A DNA stretch of 64,000 nt, taken from positions 62,001-126,000 of the forward strand of contig NZ_QAYX01000021.1 in NCBI RefSeq assembly GCF_003054705.1, given 5' to 3'. Positions 336-63,633 of this stretch are shown here, one piece after another. The stretch comes from Opitutus sp. ER46 (GTDB lineage Bacteria; Verrucomicrobiota; Verrucomicrobiia; Opitutales; Opitutaceae). The position numbers and the translations under genes are program-made. Every line of letters begins with the position of its first letter. Position 1 is the stretch's first letter. The notes under the pieces are model-generated. The model was not told where the DNA came from. It saw nothing but the letters and a program-made list of their open reading frames with translations, and did not search any database.

Positions 336-3300
336 ATGGTAGTGCCCAATTCAGCCGCCGCCGGATCGCGGGCGCCCTTCGCCAGCGCGCGCTCACTGCA
401 GCTCATTCCGTTGGTGATCCTGCTGCTGGGCCTGGCGGGATGTGCGGTCTTCTTCGTCCAGGCGCGGAATGAGATACTGCGGTCCGATGCGCAGGACTTC
501 GTCCGGCTGTCGGCGAACGCCGAGCAGGCCGTTCGGAGGCGGGTGGAAACGTACCTTGACGCGATGAACGCCGCCGCGGCGTTCTTGCGCGCGTCCACCA
601 CGGTGGAGCGCGCCGAGTGGCGTGAGTTTGTGGCGACGCTCGACCTGCCGAGCCGCTATCCCGGCATTCGCGGGCTCGTGGTGATCTACCCTGTGCCGGC
701 AGGCCAGACCGCAGCCTTTCGGCAGCGGGCGCAGGAGCTCGGGGCGCAGGAGCTGACGTTGCATGGGCTCGAGGGGCCGCTGGCGCCCAATGCGGACTAC
801 GCGATCATCACTTTCGCCGAGCCGGAGCAGTCGAACTACCGGATTCTGGGCCTGGACGTGTATTCCGAAGCGGACCGGCGGGAGGCGGCGCTGCGCGCGC
901 GCGATACGGGCCAGCCCTGCATGACGGCCCGGCTGCGCATGGCCAACGACGGTCTGAGGCGGTATGGCGCGGCACTGTACGTGCCGGTGTATCGAGCCGG
1001 GACGAACGCGCGTACCGTGGAGGAGCGGCGCGCCCTGCACGTGGGCTGGGTCGGGGCGCCGTTCATCGTCGAGGAGGTGTTCGAGGGCGCGCTCGCGCCG
1101 CGGGCGGGCAAGTTGCGACTGGAGTTTTTCGAAGGGAGCGGCCGGCAGCGCGAACGCCTCATCTATAGCTCCGACGAATCGTCCGGGCCGATCCAGGAGC
1201 CCGAGCGCGTGCAGTATATCGAACTCGCCGGGCAGCGTTTCACGATGGCCTGGGCACGGGGGCGCGAGTTCGTCGTCACCTCGCAGGCGCCGGTTTACTG
1301 GACCACGGCTGGCGCCGTCCTCGGCACGCTCCTGCTCACCGGCCTGCTCTGGAGCATCCAGAACACGGGCCGGCGCGCCCAGCGGTTGGCGGACAAGCTG
1401 ACGCAGGAGATGGCCCAGACGCAGCACGAGCTCGAGGCGGTGACCCGGCTGCAGCGCGGCGTGCTCGACGCCAGCGTGCACGCGATCATCGCGACGCGAC
1501 CGGACGGCGTGATCACCGTGTTCAACCTCGGCGCCGAGAGAATGCTTGGCCACCAGGAGGCGGAGGTGGTCGGGCGCGAACTGCCACTGCGGTTTCATGA
1601 TCCGGCGGAACTCTCCGCGCGGGCGGCGGAGCTGTCGGCCGCCACGGGGCGGACCGTTACTCCGGGCTTTGAGGTGTTCACGGTCGTGCCGGATCGCGGA
1701 CAGGTCGACGAGCGGGAGTGGACGTATGAGCGGAAAGACGGCGGGCACCTGCCCGTGCTGCTGAGCGTCACGGCGCAGCGGAACGCGGCGGGCGGAATCG
1801 CGGGCTATCTCTTCATCGCCCAGGACCTGACGCTGCGGAAGCAGGCCGAGGTGGCGTTGCGGCAGAGCGAAGAAAGGCTGAGCAGCGTGCTTGGGCACGC
1901 CGACTGTCTCGTGTGGGAGGCGACGGTGATGCTCAAGCCGGACGACTGGACCTGGCGGATGGTCGTGTATCCCTCGGCGCTCTATCGGAGGCTGCTGGGC
2001 AATCGGGAGGCGCGGCAGGAGGCCGGACTGTGGTACCATTTCAAGATTCCCGAGCAGGCCGAGATGAACCACCGCGCGCGGGCGGCGATGGAAGAAGGGC
2101 GGGAAGGCTACACGCAGGAATTCCGGTTGCTGGATGGCACGGAGACGGTGTGGCTGCGCGAAACGGTGGCGATCACGCGGGAGGGCCCGACCCAGTTCTG
2201 GCTGGTGGGTGTCGCGACAGATATCACCCAGGGAAAACGCGCCGAGGTCGCCCAGCGGGCGAGCGAGCAGCGGCTGGCGGATGTCTTCCGCTCGATGGCG
2301 GAGGGCGTGGTCGTGGTGGTGGAGGGCAAGGTGGTGGAGTGCAACACCGCGGCGCTGGAGATGCTGCAGCTGGAGCGCGAGCAGTTGATTGGTCGCAGCC
2401 TCATCGGTCCCGCGTGGCAGCTCCGCGGGGAGGATGGCATCGTGTTGCCGGAAAGTGAGTATCCATCGGCACGGGCGCGGCGCAGCGGCGAGCCGCAACG
2501 CGATGTGGTGCTGGCCCTGCGGACTTCGGGCCAAACGGAGCGGTGGCTGTCGGTGAACACCATGCCGGTGCGGGATGAGGACGGTGCGATGAGCGCAGTG
2601 GTGGTGAGCTTCATCGACATCACGCGGCGCAAACTGGCCGAGGCCGGGCTGGTCCAGAGCCAGCGGCTGCTGGAGACCGTGCTGGGCATCCTGCCCGGCA
2701 TGGTCGCGTACTGGGACGCCGGCCTGCTATGCCGGTTCTCGAATTCCGAGTACATCGACTGGTTCGGGCGGACGGCCGAGCAAATGCGGGGCATGCACAT
2801 GCGTGACCTGCTGGGCCCGGAACTCTTCGCCCTGAACGAACCCTACGTCCGCGAAGTGCTCGCCGGGAGGTCACAGCGCTTCGAGCGCACGCTCACGAAG
2901 CGGGATGGTACGGTGCGGCTCACGTGGGCGCAGTACATCCCGGATTTCGACGTCGACCAGGTGACGGTGCGCGGGTTCGTGGTGCTCGTATCGGATGTCA
3001 CCGAGATCAAGCAGCAGGAGGCGGCGCTGCGGGCGAGCGAGGCCAAGCTGCGGGAGTCGCTGCGCGAGGTGAACAACCTGAAACTGGCGCTCGACGAGCA
3101 TGCCATCGTCACGATGACGGACCCGCAGGGGGTGATCACGTATGCAAACGAGAAGTTCTGCCGGGTCACCCAGCAGTCGCTCGAGGAGGTGATCGGCCAA
3201 CCCTATGACGCGGTGGCGCCGGCGGTGGTGTCGATGGAGACCCATGCGGAGGTGCACAAGCTGGTTCAGCAGGGCCAGGTCTGGCATGGGGAGATCTGCC

Positions 3301-5399
3301 ATCGGCGGCAGGACGGGACGTGCTACTGGGTGGACGCGACGGTGGTGCCGATCCTGGGGGATGACCAGAAGCCGGTGCACTACATCACGGTGCGCACCGA
3401 CATCACGCCCCGGAAGAACCTGGAGCAGAGTCTGGCGGTGGCGCGGGATCAGGCCTTGGAGGCGTCGCGGCTGAAGTCGGAGTTCCTGGCGACGATGAGC
3501 CACGAGATCCGGACGCCGATGAATGCGATCATCGGCATGGCGGGGCTGCTGTCCGACACGGCCCTGAGCCCGGAGCAGGCCGACATGGTCCGGATCGTCT
3601 CCGGCGCGGCGGAGGGGCTGCTCGCGATCATCAATGACATCCTGGATTTTTCGCGCATCGAGGCGGGCCAGCTGCGGCTGGATGTCGGGGAATTTGACCT
3701 GGCGCGGGTCATTGAGGACACGGTGAAGCTGCTGGAGGCGCGGGCGCGGGAGAAGGGCATCGGGCTGCGGAGCGAGTTCGATCCGCCGCCGCCCGCGCGG
3801 CTCCTGGGGGATGCCGGGCGCGTCCGCCAGGTCCTGATGAACCTGCTGGGAAATGCGGTGAAGTTTACAGTGCAGGGCGAAGTGGTGGTGACCGGCACGG
3901 TGGTCAGCACGACGCCGGAGCGGGTGCGTGTGCGGGTGGCGGTGAAGGACACGGGCGTGGGGATCGCGCCGGAAGCGCGGGATCGGCTGTTCCGACCATT
4001 CGTCCAGGGGGACGGCAGCACGACGCGACGCTTTGGTGGCACGGGCCTGGGCCTGGCGATCACGCGGCAGCTCGTGGTGGCGATGGGCGGCACGATCGAT
4101 TTCGAGAGTGAGCCGGGCAAGGGCTCCACGTTCACCTTTGAGCTCGAATTCGGCGGTGGCGGCACGCTCGCGGCGGCGACGTCGGCGGCGCTGCCGCCCG
4201 GGAAGCGGGCGCTGGTCGTCGACGACAATGCGACGAACCGGGCGATCCTGGTGCGCCAGCTCGAGCACTGCGGGGTGGAAGCGGAAACCGTGGGCAACGG
4301 GGTGGCGGCGCTGGCGCGGCTGCGGGACCCGGCGGGGGCGCGCATCGACCTGCTGGTGCTCGACGTCGCGATGCCCGGGATGGACGGATGGCAGTTTGTC
4401 CGGATGCTCCGGGCAGATGCCGCGCTGGCGACGGTGCCGGTGGTGCTGCTTTCGTCGGACGATGCGGTCGATCCAGGGGAGGCGAAGGCGTTGCAGGTGG
4501 TGTCCTGGGCGCGGAAGCCGGTGACCGAGGAGGCGCTAGGACGCTGCGTGGCGCGGGCGCTGGCGGACCGGACGCCGGTGGCGGCGGAGGCCCGGCCGGC
4601 GCCGGCGGTGGCGAGCCCGCGCCCGCGGCGGCTGAAGGTCCTGCTGGTGGAGGACAACCTCGCGAACCAGCAGGTGGCCTCGCTGCTCCTAGTGAAACTG
4701 GGGCACGACGTGCAGATCGCGGGCGACGGACACCAGGCGCTCGAGCGGTTGGCGGACGGTGAGTTCGATGTGGTGCTGATGGATTGCCAGATGCCGGAGC
4801 TCGACGGCTACGAAACCACGCGGTGGATCCGGCACGGGCAGTTGCCGGGGATTGATCCGAAGATTCCGATCCTCGCGGTGACGGCGTACGCGCGGCCGGA
4901 GGACCGGAGGCGCTGCGTCGAGGCGGGAATGGACGGTTATCTTTCGAAGCCCGTGCGTTTCGACGAGCTGAGGACGGCGCTTGATGCCATCGCGGGCGGG
5001 GAGCCGGCGGGGAATGCAGCGAGGGAGGAAGGACGCGCGGACAATCCGGAGGTGATTGACGAGGTGGCCTACGAGACGACGCGGGCGCTGCCCGGCACCA
5101 CCGGGGAGTCGCTCCTGCCGGAGGTGATCGCGCTCTACCTGGGCGAGGAGCCGGCGCGGCTGGACCGGCTGGCCAAGCTCGTGGCGGACCGCGCGGCGAA
5201 GGAAGTGGCGGCGGAGGCGCACAGCTTTGGTGGCGGGGCGGTGGTGTTTGGCGGCATCGGCGTGCGCCGGGCGTCGCTCGAACTCGAGGCGGCGGCGCGG
5301 GCCGAAGACTGGGGACAGGCCGAGGACCGGCTTGCCAGGCTGAATGCGGCGGCGGAGCAGCTGCGGGCGGCGCTGCGCCAGCGCGGACTGGCCACCTGA
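336..5399 (+). CDS. Hybrid sensor histidine kinase (CHASE-PAS5-HisKA-HATPase-REC-REC-Hpt)
   Basis: A 1687-residue membrane sensor with an internal phosphorelay. A first membrane helix lies at about residues 20-43. It is followed by a periplasmic CHASE-type domain (about 45-300, with [16 protein letters not shown]) and a second helix at about 320-340. Five PAS-like modules begin near residues 375, 513, 645, 776 and 917, most ending in the PAC-type 'DIT..K' linker. The HisKA motif [12 protein letters not shown] puts the phospho-histidine at H1056. The HATPase domain has an N-box NLLGNAVKF (about 1169), DTGVGIAPE, and GTGLGLAIT (about 1235). Two receiver domains have predicted phospho-aspartates D1343 ([11 protein letters not shown]) and D1483 ([11 protein letters not shown]). 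The C-terminal Hpt domain has its histidine at H1629, in [11 protein letters not shown], where most Hpt domains read AHSLKGS. The gene starts a plus-strand run that includes a response regulator at 7716, a plausible partner. The ligand is unknown; CHASE domains bind small molecules outside the membrane. Confidence 0.93.
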
Positions 5400-16464: not shown

Positions 16465-18555
16465 TCACCAAGCGAGCTTCACGGCGAGCCATGGAGCGCG
16501 GCCGGGACTGGGCACGCGCTCGCCGGGCTGGAGGGACCCGCTCGCCGGCCGGGACGGCGACACCGGTGGGGAGAGATACTCGGTGTAGTTGCGATCGAAA
16601 AGGTTCTCGATCCCGGCGCTGACGCTCACGGTGTCGGTCAGCGAAAGACCCACGCGCAGGTGCCAGACGGAGAAGCCGGCGGTGGTTCCGAACAACGGGT
16701 TGTCGAGGGGGGCGGGGTTGGTGCGCGCGCCGGCAAGACGCGCGCCAAAGTCGAGCGCGCTGAGGTGCTGGCGCAGGCGGCCAGCGTAGCGAACGGCGGC
16801 GGAGGCCTCCCAGGGCGGGAGGTCGGGCAAGCCGGTGCCGGTGGCGCGGAGCCAGCCGGTGGCGCGCGCCAAGGTCAGTGGGATGCTCCAGCCGTCGGCG
16901 GGGCGCCAGGTGGCGCTGAGTTCGCCGCCGCAGAACGCGGCATCGGCGTTGCGATAGCCAAACACGACGACGCGGCTGGCGGTGGTGCCGATGGGGCGGC
17001 GCTGGATGAAGGCGTCGATTTGATACGCGTAGGCCGCGGCCTCGACCAGCAGCCAGGGCGTGCGCCAGGTCGCGCCGGTTTCAAGGGCGAGCTTGCGCTC
17101 GGCGGCGAGCGCGGGGTTGCCGAGCTCGAAGGCGTTGCCCCCGCGGCCATCGCCGCCGAGGGCGTTCAGAAACGCGCGGTAGCGCTCCGTGGCGGCGGCG
17201 GGTTGGGCGCTGAGCCCGGCGCCCAGGAAGGCGGAGAACGGGGAGCTGGGTTGCCAGCGCAGGAGGAGATTGGCGGCGCCGACGGCGTCATGGCGTGAGA
17301 CCCTGGCGGCGGCCGGCCCATTGTAGGCGATGAATTGCTCCCGCACCGACCGGCCGAGCGCGGGCTGGTCGGCCGCGCGCGCGTCACTGCGCAGGGCGTC
17401 GCCGCGCGCACCGGCGCGAAGCGACCAGCCGGGGGCGAGATCGCCATTCCACTCCGCGTATAAGCCGAGTTGGGACGTGATGACGTCGGGCCAGATGTGA
17501 TCACGGCCGGCACTGGTGGTGCGGATGGCGCGGCGCTGGTGCCACGAGGCATCGGCGCCGACCACCAGCGTGGCGGTCGGCGCGGGGTGCCAGGTGGAGG
17601 CAAGCCCGGCCCCGGCGGAGCGGGCGACGCTTTGCGAGAAGATGAGCGGGGAGGCCGGCCGGGCGGCGTTGGTGAGGTAGGGATCGGCGGAGGCGTACCC
17701 GATCCGCCATGACACGGCCTGGAGCGACGCCGGGGCGAGCGTGGTCCAGCGGTCGCGCAAGGCCACGACGAGCGTGTCGGTATCGCGAACGTCGAGCGGC
17801 AGCGCGAGCGTGTCCTGCCGGAGCAGCCGCCGATGGGTCACTTCGAGGCGGGCGTCGTGTTGGGCGTGCTGCCAGCCGAGTGCGACGGAGCCGCCGTGGT
17901 CCTCGTAACGAGCGGCGACGTCGCGACCTCCGCCGATGTAGTTGCCGAGCCGGTGCTGGAACAACGAGGCGTCGACGTACGCAGTGTCGTGTCGGGCGCT
18001 GACGCTGGCGACCGTGCTGAAGCCAGCGCGGCCGGCGTCGTAGCTGGACGTGAGCGAGGCGGAGTTGGCCGTCACGGTGGCCGCGCGTGATCCGCCGTGC
18101 AGGACGATGCGGCCGCCGGTGGGGACGGGACCGAGGGTGACGGACGGGAGCGCCTTGCTCACGGTGATCGCGGCGGCGGCGGTTGGGCCGAGCAGGGCGA
18201 TGGGAGCGCCGGTGCGGTCGGGGGAGGCGTTGAGGAGCGGGAGACCGTCGAAGCTGGTGGCGATGCGATCGAAACTGAAACCGCGGATGCCGGGCTCGAG
18301 CGCATCGGCGCCGCGGGCTTGGCCGAACACGCCCGGCAGGGCGAGGAGATCGGCGGCGAGGTTGGGGCTGGGCGCGCGCAGGCCCTCGCGGGGTACAGGG
18401 AGCTCGAGCTGACCGACGCGCTCGCCCGGCACGAGAAACTCAGGGAGGCGTGTCGGAGTATCGCTGCTGGACGTGGACTGGCCGCCGCGGGTGGTGGCCG
18501 CGAGGAGGGCGAGGGTGGCGGCGAGCGGGAGGAGGCGACGCGTCAGGCAGGCCAT
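16465..18555 (-). CDS. TonB-dependent receptor (possibly metal/copper type)
   Basis: A 696-residue outer-membrane receptor with an N-terminal signal peptide (RRLLPLAATLALLAA), a short energy-coupling region (TRLPEFLVPGERVGQLELPV), a plug domain (LLALPGVFGQARGADALEPG, IRGFSFDRIATSFDGLPL), and a barrel. The barrel includes AFELGNPALAAERKLALETG and IENLFDRNYTEYLSPP and ends in tryptophan (LAVKLAW). The plug and barrel motifs resemble the OprC/NosA copper-receptor branch more than siderophore receptors, but this is a weak inference. The upstream region carries three tandem 21-bp repeats, suggesting specific transcriptional control. The EamA gene lies 87 bases downstream. Confidence 0.85.
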   Translation of the reverse strand: MACLTRRLLPLAATLALLAATTRGGQSTSSSDTPTRLPEFLVPGERVGQLELPVPREGLRAPSPNLAADLLALPGVFGQARGADALEPGIRGFSFDRIATSFDGLPLLNASPDRTGAPIALLGPTAAAAITVSKALPSVTLGPVPTGGRIVLHGGSRAATVTANSASLTSSYDAGRAGFSTVASVSARHDTAYVDASLFQHRLGNYIGGGRDVAARYEDHGGSVALGWQHAQHDARLEVTHRRLLRQDTLALPLDVRDTDTLVVALRDRWTTLAPASLQAVSWRIGYASADPYLTNAARPASPLIFSQSVARSAGAGLASTWHPAPTATLVVGADASWHQRRAIRTTSAGRDHIWPDVITSQLGLYAEWNGDLAPGWSLRAGARGDALRSDARAADQPALGRSVREQFIAYNGPAAARVSRHDAVGAANLLLRWQPSSPFSAFLGAGLSAQPAAATERYRAFLNALGGDGRGGNAFELGNPALAAERKLALETGATWRTPWLLVEAAAYAYQIDAFIQRRPIGTTASRVVVFGYRNADAAFCGGELSATWRPADGWSIPLTLARATGWLRATGTGLPDLPPWEASAAVRYAGRLRQHLSALDFGARLAGARTNPAPLDNPLFGTTAGFSVWHLRVGLSLTDTVSVSAGIENLFDRNYTEYLSPPVSPSRPASGSLQPGERVPSPGRAPWLAVKLAW

Positions 18556-18597
18556 GGGGCGGGCGTGCGTGGAGGAAAGGCGAGGCAGGGTGGGACG

Positions 18598-18660
18598 AGT
18601 ATCCGGACATTATTTCCAAGTATCCGGACATTATTCCGGAGTATCTGGACATTATCCCGG
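18598..18660. repeat. Three tandem 21-bp direct repeats, probable operator array
   Basis: Three head-to-tail copies start at 18598, 18619 and 18640, each beginning AGTATC(C/T)GGACATTAT. Copies 1 and 2 are identical over their first 17 bases; copy 3 differs at one base there. The spacing of exactly 21 bp (two helical turns) places each copy on the same face of the DNA, as for cooperative protein binding. They end 43 bp upstream of the TonB receptor start codon, so a repressor or activator of that gene is the simplest reading. Confidence 0.8.
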
Positions 18661-18787
18661 TACTGATTGCCGTTGTGGTGGTTATAATTGTTGGCCTCGT
18701 TGCCTCTGTGTCCTGGGGGGTGGTGGTGAGGAGGGCGCAGACGGGAAGATGAGAGAAAGAGTAGGAGTAAGAGAAAGATATCCCGGG

Positions 18788-18808
18788 CCGGCGCCGAAAC
18801 GGCGCCGG
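18788..18808 (-). terminator. Hairpin downstream of hydA
   Basis: A perfect 9-bp inverted repeat CCGGCGCCG / CGGCGCCGG has a 3-base loop, 88 bases beyond the hydA stop. No strong T-run follows on the minus strand, so this is a possible terminator of the hyd operon. Confidence 0.4.
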
Positions 18809-18895
18809 GGGTTGCATCCCACGTTCAGTTTTCGCGCAGCGAAGACTACGAGAACCGGGGGATGGCTGTCGCCCCCCCGGTTGGTTCGAGGAGGG

Positions 18896-20641
18896 CTATC
18901 GCTTGTAAACCGGGCGGGCGGTGTAGCGGGTGTGGAGGAGCTCGTGGGCGCGCTGGCCGAGCGGTTTGCCGAGGAACTCCTGATACAGGCGGATGACCTC
19001 CGGGTTCTCGTGGGAGAAGCGGATCGAGCAGTCGCGGTCATCCTGATACAGCCCGGCGGTGCGCAGCTTCCGGCGTTCGTTGTCGACGCCGTACGGCTGG
19101 CCGCCGCCGCCGATGCAGCCGCCGGGGCAGGCCATCACCTCGATGAAGTGGTAGGGCGTTTCGCGGCCGGCGTTGCGCGCCTCGCGCACGCGATCGAGCA
19201 CCTGCTCGACGTTGGCGAGCCCGTGGGCAACGGCGACGCGGATCGGGGCGCCGCCGACTACGACGGTGCCTTCCTTCACGCCCTGGAGCCCGCGGATCGA
19301 CTCGAGCTCGACCTTTTCGAGCTTCTTGCCGGTGGCGTAGAAGTAGGCCGTGCGGACCGCGGCCTCCATGACGCCGCCGGTGGCGCCGAAGATCGTGCCG
19401 GCGCCGGAGTAGTCGCCGAGGATGGAATCGGCGGCGCCGTCGGCCAGCTGGAGGAACTCGATGCCCGACTGCTTGAGCATGCGGGCGAGCTCGCGGGTGG
19501 TGAGGGCGACGTCGACGTCCTTGTGGCCGGAGGCGTACATCTCCTCGGTCCGTGACAGCTCATACTTCTTGGCGGTGCACGGCATGATGGAGACGACGTA
19601 CATCTTCGCCGGGTCGATCCCGAGTTTCTTCGCGTAGTAGGTCTTGGCGAGGACGCCGAGCATCTGCTGGGGCGACTTGGCGGTGGAGAAGTTGTCGATG
19701 AAGTCGTAGTGGCGCTTCTCCATGAAGTCGGTCCACGACGGGCAGCACGACGTGATGAGCGGCAACTGGCCGCGTTTGTGGACGAAGCGTTCGATGAACT
19801 CGCTGGCCTCCTCGACGATGGTGACGTCGGCGGAGAAGTTCGTGTCGAACACGGCCTTGAAGCCGAGGCGCCGGAGGCCGGCGTAGAGCTTCTTGGTGAG
19901 GTTGGTGCCGGGCGGGAGCCCGAAGGCTTCGCCGACGGTGACGCGGACCGACGGGGCGATCTGGACGACGCAGACCTTGTCGGGGTCGTGGAGGGCACGC
20001 CAGACCTCGGCGGTCTCGTCGTTTTCGACGATGGCGCCGGTGGGGCAGTGGGCGGAGCACTGGCCGCATTTCACGCAGGGGGATTCGGCGAGGGTGATGT
20101 CACCGGCCGGCGCCATGCGGGTGTTGATGCCGCGCTCGAGAAACGACAGGGCCCAGACGTTCTGCATCTCCTGGCAGACCTGGATGCAGCGGCCGCATTT
20201 GATGCACTTCTGGAACTCGAGGATGATCGAGCCGGTGGAGCGGTCGGGCGGCGTGTCCTTCACGTACCGCTTGATGGACTCCATCGGGATATTGAAGTCG
20301 GCGGCGAGGGACTGGAGCTCGCATTCGCCGTTGCGGCCGCAGGTGAGGCACGCCTGGGGGTGGTTGGACAGGATGAGCTCGAGCGTGGAGCGGCGGACGT
20401 CGACGATCTCGCGGTCGTGCGTCGTGATCTCCATGCCGTTTTCGAGCGGGGTGCAGCAGGCGCGGATGAGTTTGTTGCCGCCCTTGTTGCGGACGATGCA
20501 GATCCCGCAGGCGGCGGTGGCGAGCAGGTCCTTGTGCTTGCAGAGGGTGGGGATCTTGACCTGCACCTGGCGGGCGGCGTCGAGAATGCTGGTGCCCTCG
20601 GGGACCTCGACTTCGATCTGGTTGATGCGGGCTTTGATCAT
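18896..20641 (-). CDS. hydA: [FeFe]-hydrogenase catalytic subunit HydA
   Basis: A 581-residue enzyme that reversibly reduces protons to H2. An N-terminal [2Fe-2S] domain (C34, C45, C48, C62 or C63) is followed by the His-Cys3 cluster motif H94-C98-C101-C107. Two [4Fe-4S] clusters come next (C146/149/152/156 and C189/192/195/199). The H-cluster domain has all three signatures: TSCCPSW (C299, C300), MPCTAKKYE (C355), and EVMACPGGCIGGGGQP (C505, C509). C299 is the conserved proton-relay cysteine. This is the clostridial CpI-like modular layout with no C-terminal extension. Its ATG overlaps the hydB stop by four bases (ATGA), so the subunits are translated together. Redox partners are NAD(H) through HydBC and perhaps ferredoxin. 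The HydEFG maturases are not in the window. Confidence 0.95.
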   Translation of the reverse strand: MIKARINQIEVEVPEGTSILDAARQVQVKIPTLCKHKDLLATAACGICIVRNKGGNKLIRACCTPLENGMEITTHDREIVDVRRSTLELILSNHPQACLTCGRNGECELQSLAADFNIPMESIKRYVKDTPPDRSTGSIILEFQKCIKCGRCIQVCQEMQNVWALSFLERGINTRMAPAGDITLAESPCVKCGQCSAHCPTGAIVENDETAEVWRALHDPDKVCVVQIAPSVRVTVGEAFGLPPGTNLTKKLYAGLRRLGFKAVFDTNFSADVTIVEEASEFIERFVHKRGQLPLITSCCPSWTDFMEKRHYDFIDNFSTAKSPQQMLGVLAKTYYAKKLGIDPAKMYVVSIMPCTAKKYELSRTEEMYASGHKDVDVALTTRELARMLKQSGIEFLQLADGAADSILGDYSGAGTIFGATGGVMEAAVRTAYFYATGKKLEKVELESIRGLQGVKEGTVVVGGAPIRVAVAHGLANVEQVLDRVREARNAGRETPYHFIEVMACPGGCIGGGGQPYGVDNERRKLRTAGLYQDDRDCSIRFSHENPEVIRLYQEFLGKPLGQRAHELLHTRYTARPVYKR

Positions 20642-63566: not shown

Positions 63567-63633
63567 CCGAGATAACACGCCAAATCTGGCGTGTTATCGC
63601 CGATAACTCGCCAGATTTGGCGTGTTATCTCGG
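63567..63633. repeat. 67-bp nested palindrome
   Basis: Two perfect 25-base arms (63567-63591 and 63609-63633) flank a 17-base centre, itself a GTTATC-GCC-GATAAC palindrome. Each arm contains, with its neighbouring bases, a 12-bp palindrome GATAACACGCCA / TGGCGTGTTATC. It is AT-richer than the surroundings and could fold as one cruciform or as two adjacent hairpins. Confidence 0.9.

Follow-up and report, generated by a model that had tools for sequence, protein, structure and literature searches.

Three 21-bp repeats beside a TonB receptor gene of Opitutus sp. ER46 belong to a dispersed, evenly spaced family of intergenic elements

Three near-identical 21-bp direct repeats stand immediately upstream of a gene for a TonB-dependent receptor in Opitutus sp. 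ER46, which raises the question of whether they serve this gene or are part of something that concerns the whole chromosome. In bacteria, dispersed repeats are commonly regarded as selfish DNA or relics, and it is an old question whether any of them function at the scale of the chromosome. The stretch of DNA analysed here, hereafter the window, comprises 64,000 nucleotides (contig NZ_QAYX01000021.1, positions 62,001 to 126,000). In a preliminary description of this window, the repeats had been interpreted as an array for the cooperative binding of a regulator of the receptor gene. The repeats themselves are real: Tandem Repeats Finder reports a period of 21, 3.0 copies, 86% matches and a score of 93 at 18597-18660, and the start-to-start distance of the three units, read from the sequence, is exactly 21 bp. 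They also adjoin the start of the receptor gene as described, the ATG of this minus-strand gene being located 43 bp to the left of the array, and they are far above chance, since the genome has 33 matches to the two-unit pattern, of which two overlap within one copy, and 0 to its reversed control. The array is, however, not the complete feature. It is only the left half of a non-coding element of about 120 bp, ending at ~18717 in the window (Table 1), which forms a dispersed family in Opitutus sp. ER46; the 3' end of a hydrogenase-like gene is located ~180 bp to the right of the element.

Table 1. Coordinates in the window of the element copy, its parts and the two neighbouring genes.
Feature	Position	Strand	Remark
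Whole element copy (array, spacer, core, tail)	18597..18717	+	At least 87 such copies genome-wide
Unit 1, GTATCCGGACATTAT	18599..18613	+	Sequence reading
Unit 2, GTATCCGGACATTAT	18620..18634	+	Sequence reading
Unit 3, core-proximal, GTATCTGGACATTAT	18641..18655	+	T in CTGG typical of the last unit
Spacer, 28 nt, semi-variable	18656..18683	+	Same length in 78/86 assembled copies
Core ATAATTG	18684..18690	+	Present in 83/86 assembled copies
Conserved tail, family consensus CAGCCCTCGTCCCCTCG..TCCTGG	18691..18717	+	Family alignment
TonB-dependent receptor gene (context only)	16465..18555	-	PF00593 3.3e-26, PF07715 8.4e-6
[FeFe]-hydrogenase catalytic-subunit-like gene (context only)	18896..20641	-	PF02906 3.8e-90

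The size of the family was determined in the genome of the strain itself, which comprises 5.71 Mb in 25 contigs. One protein of this genome, membrane pyrophosphatase-like and 830 aa long, agrees with a probable placement in the Opitutaceae: among the matches listed, its nearest named records are MAGs of Opitutaceae, Opitutae and other Verrucomicrobiota, with identities of up to 86%. When 401 bp around the array were compared with this genome, 42 matches were found. Apart from the query, these were 39 across the array, many of which extend ~60 bp to the right of it, and two short ones farther right. The composite pattern GGACATTAT-N28-ATAATTG has 70 exact places in the genome, and its reversed control has 0. 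The window copy was also recovered by a profile search (18620-18716, E 2.9e-23). Furthermore, a sequence profile built from 42 copies gave 111 genome matches, and these were counted as 87 loci, a lower bound with 150 of the 913 profile candidates scored. Copies with spacers of 26-28 nt only were admitted to the set assembled with flanks, which holds 86 copies; the 87th locus, L123, whose spacer exceeds this range (29 nt by hand count), is therefore absent from it.

Each element consists of one to four units of GTATCYGGACATTAT ~21 bp apart, a 28-nt spacer, the core ATAATTG and a conserved tail of ~27 nt. By the strict unit pattern, 47 of the 86 copies contain three units, 31 contain two, six contain one and two contain four; with mismatches allowed, the numbers of copies with three, two, one and four units are 58, 22, 5 and 1, respectively. 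Neighbouring units are 21 bp apart in 76 cases, 22 bp in 23, 20 bp in 13 and 23 bp in 13, and the remaining spacings are 11, 19, 32 or 43 bp (six cases together). The spacer is 28 nt long in 78 copies and 26 nt in the other eight; in six of these eight the last two units are 23 bp apart, so that the distance of the outer unit to the core is kept. The core reads ATAATTG in 83 of the 86 copies and the last unit reads GTATCYGGACATTAT in 80; the invariance of both in an alignment of 43 copies is by construction, because the pattern by which those copies were selected contained them. In the same alignment, the last unit contains CTGG in 42/43 copies, and the unit before it has C at that position (CCGG) in 31/43. 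Together with its preceding base, the core forms TATAAT, a -10-like hexamer. The spacer has conserved positions (CCCG.WAGT..YTG, RG, TW) amid nearly random ones, and the conservation of the tail fades at ~+33 from the core. The only inverted sequence noticed in the element is ATTAT-N28-ATAAT. Spacer positions 5 and 26 of 28, which are 21 nt apart, covary (C-G, T-A/G, G-T), being complementary in 75% of 68 copies versus 54% expected, with no helix predicted.

Some copies also carry a hairpin beside the first unit (15 of 86) or from ~30 nt after the core (11 of 86), as compared with 6 and 1, respectively, in control windows. Left hairpins of the type CTTTTGTTTTCGCC..GGCGAAAACAAAAG are located 1-5 nt before the first unit at loci L015, L037, L039, L087, L097, L100 and L112, and right hairpins start 30-32 nt after the core at L016, L017, L019, L057, L108 and L113. 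Their stems vary among copies with the pairing kept, and these flanking hairpins are possibly optional end modules.

The copies are intergenic, with only one of the 86 inside a called gene. Of the 84 copies classified by their neighbours (two were omitted as edge cases), 35 lie between convergent genes, 38 between tandem genes and 11 between divergent genes, as compared with 14, 41 and 22 for other gaps of at least 60 bp at the same loci (Fisher P 0.002 for the convergent excess and 0.019 for the divergent class); these context classes are approximate because the genes were called with a custom hexamer model for which 20 ORFs of the window served as training set. The facing gene end is at most 100 bp from the copy for 41 of 108 3' ends versus 5 of 60 5' ends (P 2e-5). 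The elements have no preferred orientation, the tandem pairs being split into 19 and 19, and the window copy is an exception to the 3'-end bias, as the nearest gene start is only 43 bp away.

The copies are also spaced more evenly along the contigs than random placement would give. The coefficient of variation of the gaps is 0.665 versus 0.977 for random placement (P 5e-5, 20,000 simulations), no gap among the 86 positions is shorter than 7 kb where 8.7 would be expected, and 11 are shorter than 20 kb versus 22.2 expected; for these tests, only one was kept of two copies on contig C22 that are 1.8 kb apart and belong to a segmental duplication. The same result was obtained with a strict set of 69 copies and with a null model of discrete candidate sites (P for the strict-set coefficient of variation 0.001 and 0.0035). 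Close pairs are most clearly depleted below 5 kb (0 versus 6.0 expected), and up to 40 kb the depletion is weaker and not significant bin by bin. The largest copy-free gap within a contig is 186 kb, and among neighbour pairs closer than 20 kb, 8/11 have the same orientation and 3/11 the opposite one.

Two lines of evidence bear on how the copies have evolved. From the 78 copies with a 28-nt spacer, 1,500 pairs were sampled. Their mismatch was 0.161 in the 52 conserved columns, compared with 0.667 in the 33 variable ones and 0.719 in the flanks; since conservation in these very copies had served to sort the columns, the first value is low by construction, and the informative figure of this comparison is the 0.667 of the variable columns. 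Variable positions of the spacer and of the tail are uncorrelated (Mantel r 0.001, with 249 of 500 permutations as high or higher), and the nearest-neighbour distance is slightly below that of shuffled copies (6.88 versus 7.93). Variable positions that are nearly saturated and uncorrelated in this way imply that most copies have lost their shared history wherever they were free to change, with the conserved columns kept. The second line comes from L097 and L112, a segmental duplication that includes the flanks. The flanks of this pair differ at 66 of 388 aligned positions, the variable columns at 7 of 33 and the conserved columns at 2 of 52 (one-sided Fisher 0.006 versus the flanks and 0.016 versus the variable columns). 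These comparisons suggest purifying selection on single copies, the duplication test resting on L097/L112 alone, where gene conversion might also account for the sparing. On the other hand, a few pairs, among them L003/L058 (129 bp, 94%) and L009/L037 (111 bp, 95%), have the element in common, with the variable parts identical or nearly so, while their flanks differ, so that copying of the element has happened.

Beyond this genome the element was not found. The preliminary description had proposed conservation in relatives as a check, and the profile search found the element in none of the 26 other genomes of the genus; the receptor gene itself has a weak match only (28-33% identity) in 3 of these 26. 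A search of 272 other genomes of the order also gave none, with stricter filters and 15 candidates scored per genome, filters that recover only 18 matches in the strain's own genome. An exact two-unit pattern was absent from a contig collection of 84,980 species, an exact pattern was likewise absent from viral contigs, and 72,556 plasmid records gave no match; each of these three collections may lack records of the strain itself or of near relatives. A plasmid or viral origin was rejected on the last two results. In addition, de novo repeat scans of 400 kb each of the relatives G008 (best 30 of 128 peaks) and G023 (all 6 peaks) returned other dispersed repeats and not this architecture; the same scan of 400 kb of the strain's own genome flagged all 6 elements there.

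The reading that we prefer, with somewhat less than even confidence, is that the element is a dispersed binding array for a putative chromosome-organising protein. Phased units of flexible count, together with a rigid distance from the last unit to the core, suggest cooperative binding with a fixed contact at the core: a sequence-specific protein would occupy the units cooperatively along a single helix face, and the same putative protein would make a fixed contact at the core, set by that rigid distance. The random direction, the 3'-end bias, the signs of selection and the even spacing in turn suggest a role for the whole chromosome, and the spread-out sites would then act in domain organisation, topology, anchoring, segregation or coupling to division, and not as switches of adjacent genes. 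With ~87 copies evenly scattered, a chromosome-wide landmark is likelier than the switch of one transport gene. Of the preliminary interpretation, the cooperative binding array is retained as a plausible part, as helically phased, near-identical units would fit it, but its dedication to the TonB receptor is not. The copies also have the wide, non-random chromosomal distribution that would be expected of a site system like those of Noc, SlmA or MatP.

Several observations speak against a chromosome-organising role. No counterpart was found in the 26 genomes of the genus or the 272 of the order, though one would expect a generally important system to be present in relatives; the element can be copied, as the pairs above illustrate, and its nearest-neighbour distances are below those of shuffled copies; there is no large copy-free stretch, unlike in terminus-avoiding or terminus-specific systems; and even spacing might also result from insertion immunity or from the loss of close pairs. 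A further claim would be that the 87 or more arrays are under selection and serve, at their even spacing, as chromosome marks for a putative DNA-binding protein not yet described. They would then form a new site-specific chromosome-organising system, based on phased direct repeats at a fixed distance from a core, and this system would have arisen or been replaced within this Opitutaceae lineage; we regard this claim as rather doubtful. The family nevertheless combines three signs of function, namely conserved columns beside near-saturated ones, a site spared in a diverged duplication and over-even spacing, and with the three together its function becomes testable.

The main rival to a chromosome-organising array, possible though in our estimation somewhat unlikely, is an old mobile, non-autonomous repeat (MITE-, BOX- or BrickBuilt-like) whose units would be bound by a transposase or a copying machinery, with insertion immunity producing the even spacing and the purging of promoter insertions producing the 3' bias. 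If the even spacing does reflect insertion immunity, a very small element would have left a clear trace of such immunity in the genome. A mobile origin is consistent with the intergenic, 3'-biased and orientation-neutral placement, with the pairs that have the element alone in common, with the subfamily of eight copies that have a 26-nt spacer (six with the last units 23 bp apart), with the confinement to one species in the searches of 26 and 272 genomes and 84,980 species, and with the hairpin modules that exactly abut some copies. Target-site duplications, however, did not exceed chance: a 3-mer excess (9/86) was lost when the scan (k = 3-7) was permuted, as 5 of 60 permuted pairings reached the observed maximum. 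No partner transposase carrying the units was found either, since among the 212 single units in the genome the first 100 listed all lie inside elements by eye. Moreover, the variable columns are nearly saturated without linkage between spacer and tail, and in a duplication that extends into the flanks the conserved columns were spared, which would not be expected of neutral, dead copies.

One particular form of mobility, an origin from REP sequences and their RAYT transposases, was suggested by a single locus and rejected. Of the 13 Y1_Tnp matches in the genome, only one (L063, which coincides with L044) has the element within the fetched flanks of ~1.5 kb. At this locus (2131-4501 and 4747-5724 of L044, on contig C22), a 1.29-kb Y1-transposase unit, with several further genome copies of ~90-96% identity, interrupts the tail of an element copy, and it is located between 544-bp direct duplications beside an array of 15 CRISPR-like repeats. 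The transposase unit thus sits inside the tail of the copy between duplications, and the other fetched Y1_Tnp loci have no element within ~1.5 kb.

It is improbable that the element is a promoter with activator boxes, i.e. phased sites at a rigid distance from a TATAAT, serving a large regulon or small RNAs. Activator-dependent promoters have a rigid distance from box to core and looser spacing among the boxes, and the element agrees with them in that its ATAAT core is rigidly placed after the last unit (28 nt in 78/86), with looser spacing between the units. Its direction with respect to the neighbours is random, however, without a consistent direction towards a transcribed gene (tandem 19 versus 19, divergent 11/84), and a co-directed gene is located downstream of only 30/84 copies. 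There is also no recognisable -35 consensus at the expected place, judged by the composition of the spacer; the conserved sequence ends at ~+33 without a conserved structure; and terminators are not in excess downstream (4/86 on the plus strand and 8/86 on the minus strand, with 7 and 5 upstream).

A neutral dispersed repeat, without present function and conserved through shared origin or gene conversion, has even less to recommend it and is already disfavoured. Dispersed low-complexity and palindromic repeats do occur in this genome and in its relatives, but the conserved and the near-saturated columns differ sharply within the same copies, and the spacing is even. Least probable of all is a cooperative operator of the adjacent receptor gene: the phased repeats are located 43 bp upstream of its start, but they belong to one of at least 87 copies chromosome-wide, the window copy is among the few near a 5' end (5/60 within 100 bp), and when other transport genes were considered, as had been proposed, a copy within ~1 kb upstream was found for only 1 of 69 Plug-domain genes, the window's own, with 1.16 expected by chance, so that together with the 3'-end bias the local-operator reading loses its basis. 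The element may have a side effect on the adjacent receptor gene.

Other candidates were rejected on more direct grounds. An RNA element is contradicted by the Rfam search of 18300-19000, which gave no hit with E up to 1, by RNAalifold, which gave no consensus structure for 43 copies on either strand and hence no conserved palindrome of the REP type, and by the terminator counts above; somewhat better folding of single copies points the other way (array region -100..-40, mean z -1.22 versus mononucleotide shuffles, 19/86 below -2), perhaps because TCCGGA is self-complementary. A coding repeat was considered, as 21 bp equal seven codons and one frame gives a hydrophobic peptide, but in 19 of 78 copies the most open frame has a TAA within the spacer. 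A CRISPR array would have many identical repeats with unique spacers, versus one to four units with gaps of mostly 6 nt here.

The element is a member of a broad kind, the interspersed intergenic direct-repeat elements, as it has many copies (87 loci), nearly all outside called genes. The family itself was not found described in the open-access literature searched, which, with the empty Rfam result, agrees with the preliminary remark that the array matched no recognised regulator site. BOX and RUP of Streptococcus pneumoniae are likewise intergenic and modular, their internal modules varying in number, and BOX forms stable RNA stem-loops, unlike the element here, which has no consensus fold. 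The iteron arrays found at plasmid origins and the TnsB arrays at the ends of Tn7 consist of 21-22-bp direct repeats on one helix face beside a fixed sequence. The element likewise has phased direct repeats of ~21 bp next to a fixed sequence, but it occurs in at least 87 chromosomal copies and no linked replication or transposition gene was seen beyond the one Y1 locus. The sites of Noc and SlmA are single short sequences, unlike the phased multi-unit arrays here, which also leave no free stretch longer than 186 kb within a contig. As far as the available parts of the sources go, both systems are similar to the element in having scattered specific sites read by one protein, which is only putative here, and SlmA sites are denser near the origin (PMC4331003, PMC4117426). 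Likewise, REPs are described as palindromes of 20-40 bp, and the element resembles REP, BIME and REPIN sequences in its many intergenic copies per genome, but differs from them in being a direct-repeat array without a consensus hairpin, according to the portion of the source at hand (PMC3733652).

The nearest described elements that we met are STAR and BrickBuilt, neither of which is the same by sequence or unit length in those parts of the two descriptions that were available: the unit here is GTATCYGGACATTAT with a 21-bp period, as compared with the 14-bp unit of STAR and the 23-nt unit of BrickBuilt. BrickBuilt, a MITE of Porphyromonas gingivalis, has 23-nt tandem direct repeats in a longer intergenic element, and it resembles the family here in its direct repeats of about two helical turns, its leader and tail, its restriction to a species and its variable number of repeats (PMC4596501, in part). 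It differs in copy number, with 19 copies in one strain versus at least 87 here, and has properties of its own: its terminal inverted repeats resemble those of the IS5 family, and it is stated to have promoter activity, with transcription in both directions, while no even spacing is described in the same part of that source (PMC4596501). STAR of Staphylococcus aureus similarly consists of interspersed intergenic direct repeats that are abundant in only some species of a genus, and it has been argued to be under purifying selection with its function unknown; its sequence is unrelated, with a GC-rich unit of 14 bp and units that are separated by 40 bp or more of recurring sequence, as given in the accessible part of the description (PMC3532100).

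Several other repeats were noticed in the course of these searches. The surroundings of the array had been described as otherwise free of repeats, which did not hold: at ~18752-18845 of the window, to the right of the element, a purine-rich stretch GGCGCCGAAACGGCGCC is followed by a palindromic stretch TTTTCGCGCAGCGAA, and sequences resembling both are present elsewhere in the genome. The relative G008, of the same genus, has its own dispersed repeat of ~160 bp, which contains CAACTCTCAACT / AGTTGAGAGTTGAG arrays in inverted arrangement and has AACCGTTCGGTT at its centre (contig C20, 64546, 71350, 339207, 357121 and 383774). Another repeat type, degenerate CTCCGGCTTC / TCTGACCTC arrays, is located in the strain's own genome on contig C25 (6630, 192098 and 275343). 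GTTTTCG..CGAAAAC palindromes, of which the genome has 93, are an independent dispersed palindrome family; many of those listed are located every few kb on C9, C13 and the first 50 kb of C18. Finally, the palindrome GATAACACGCCAAATCTGGCGTGTTATC, in tandem at 63571-63629 of the window, is another dispersed palindrome, and a near-identical one is found in the left flank of the element copy L105.
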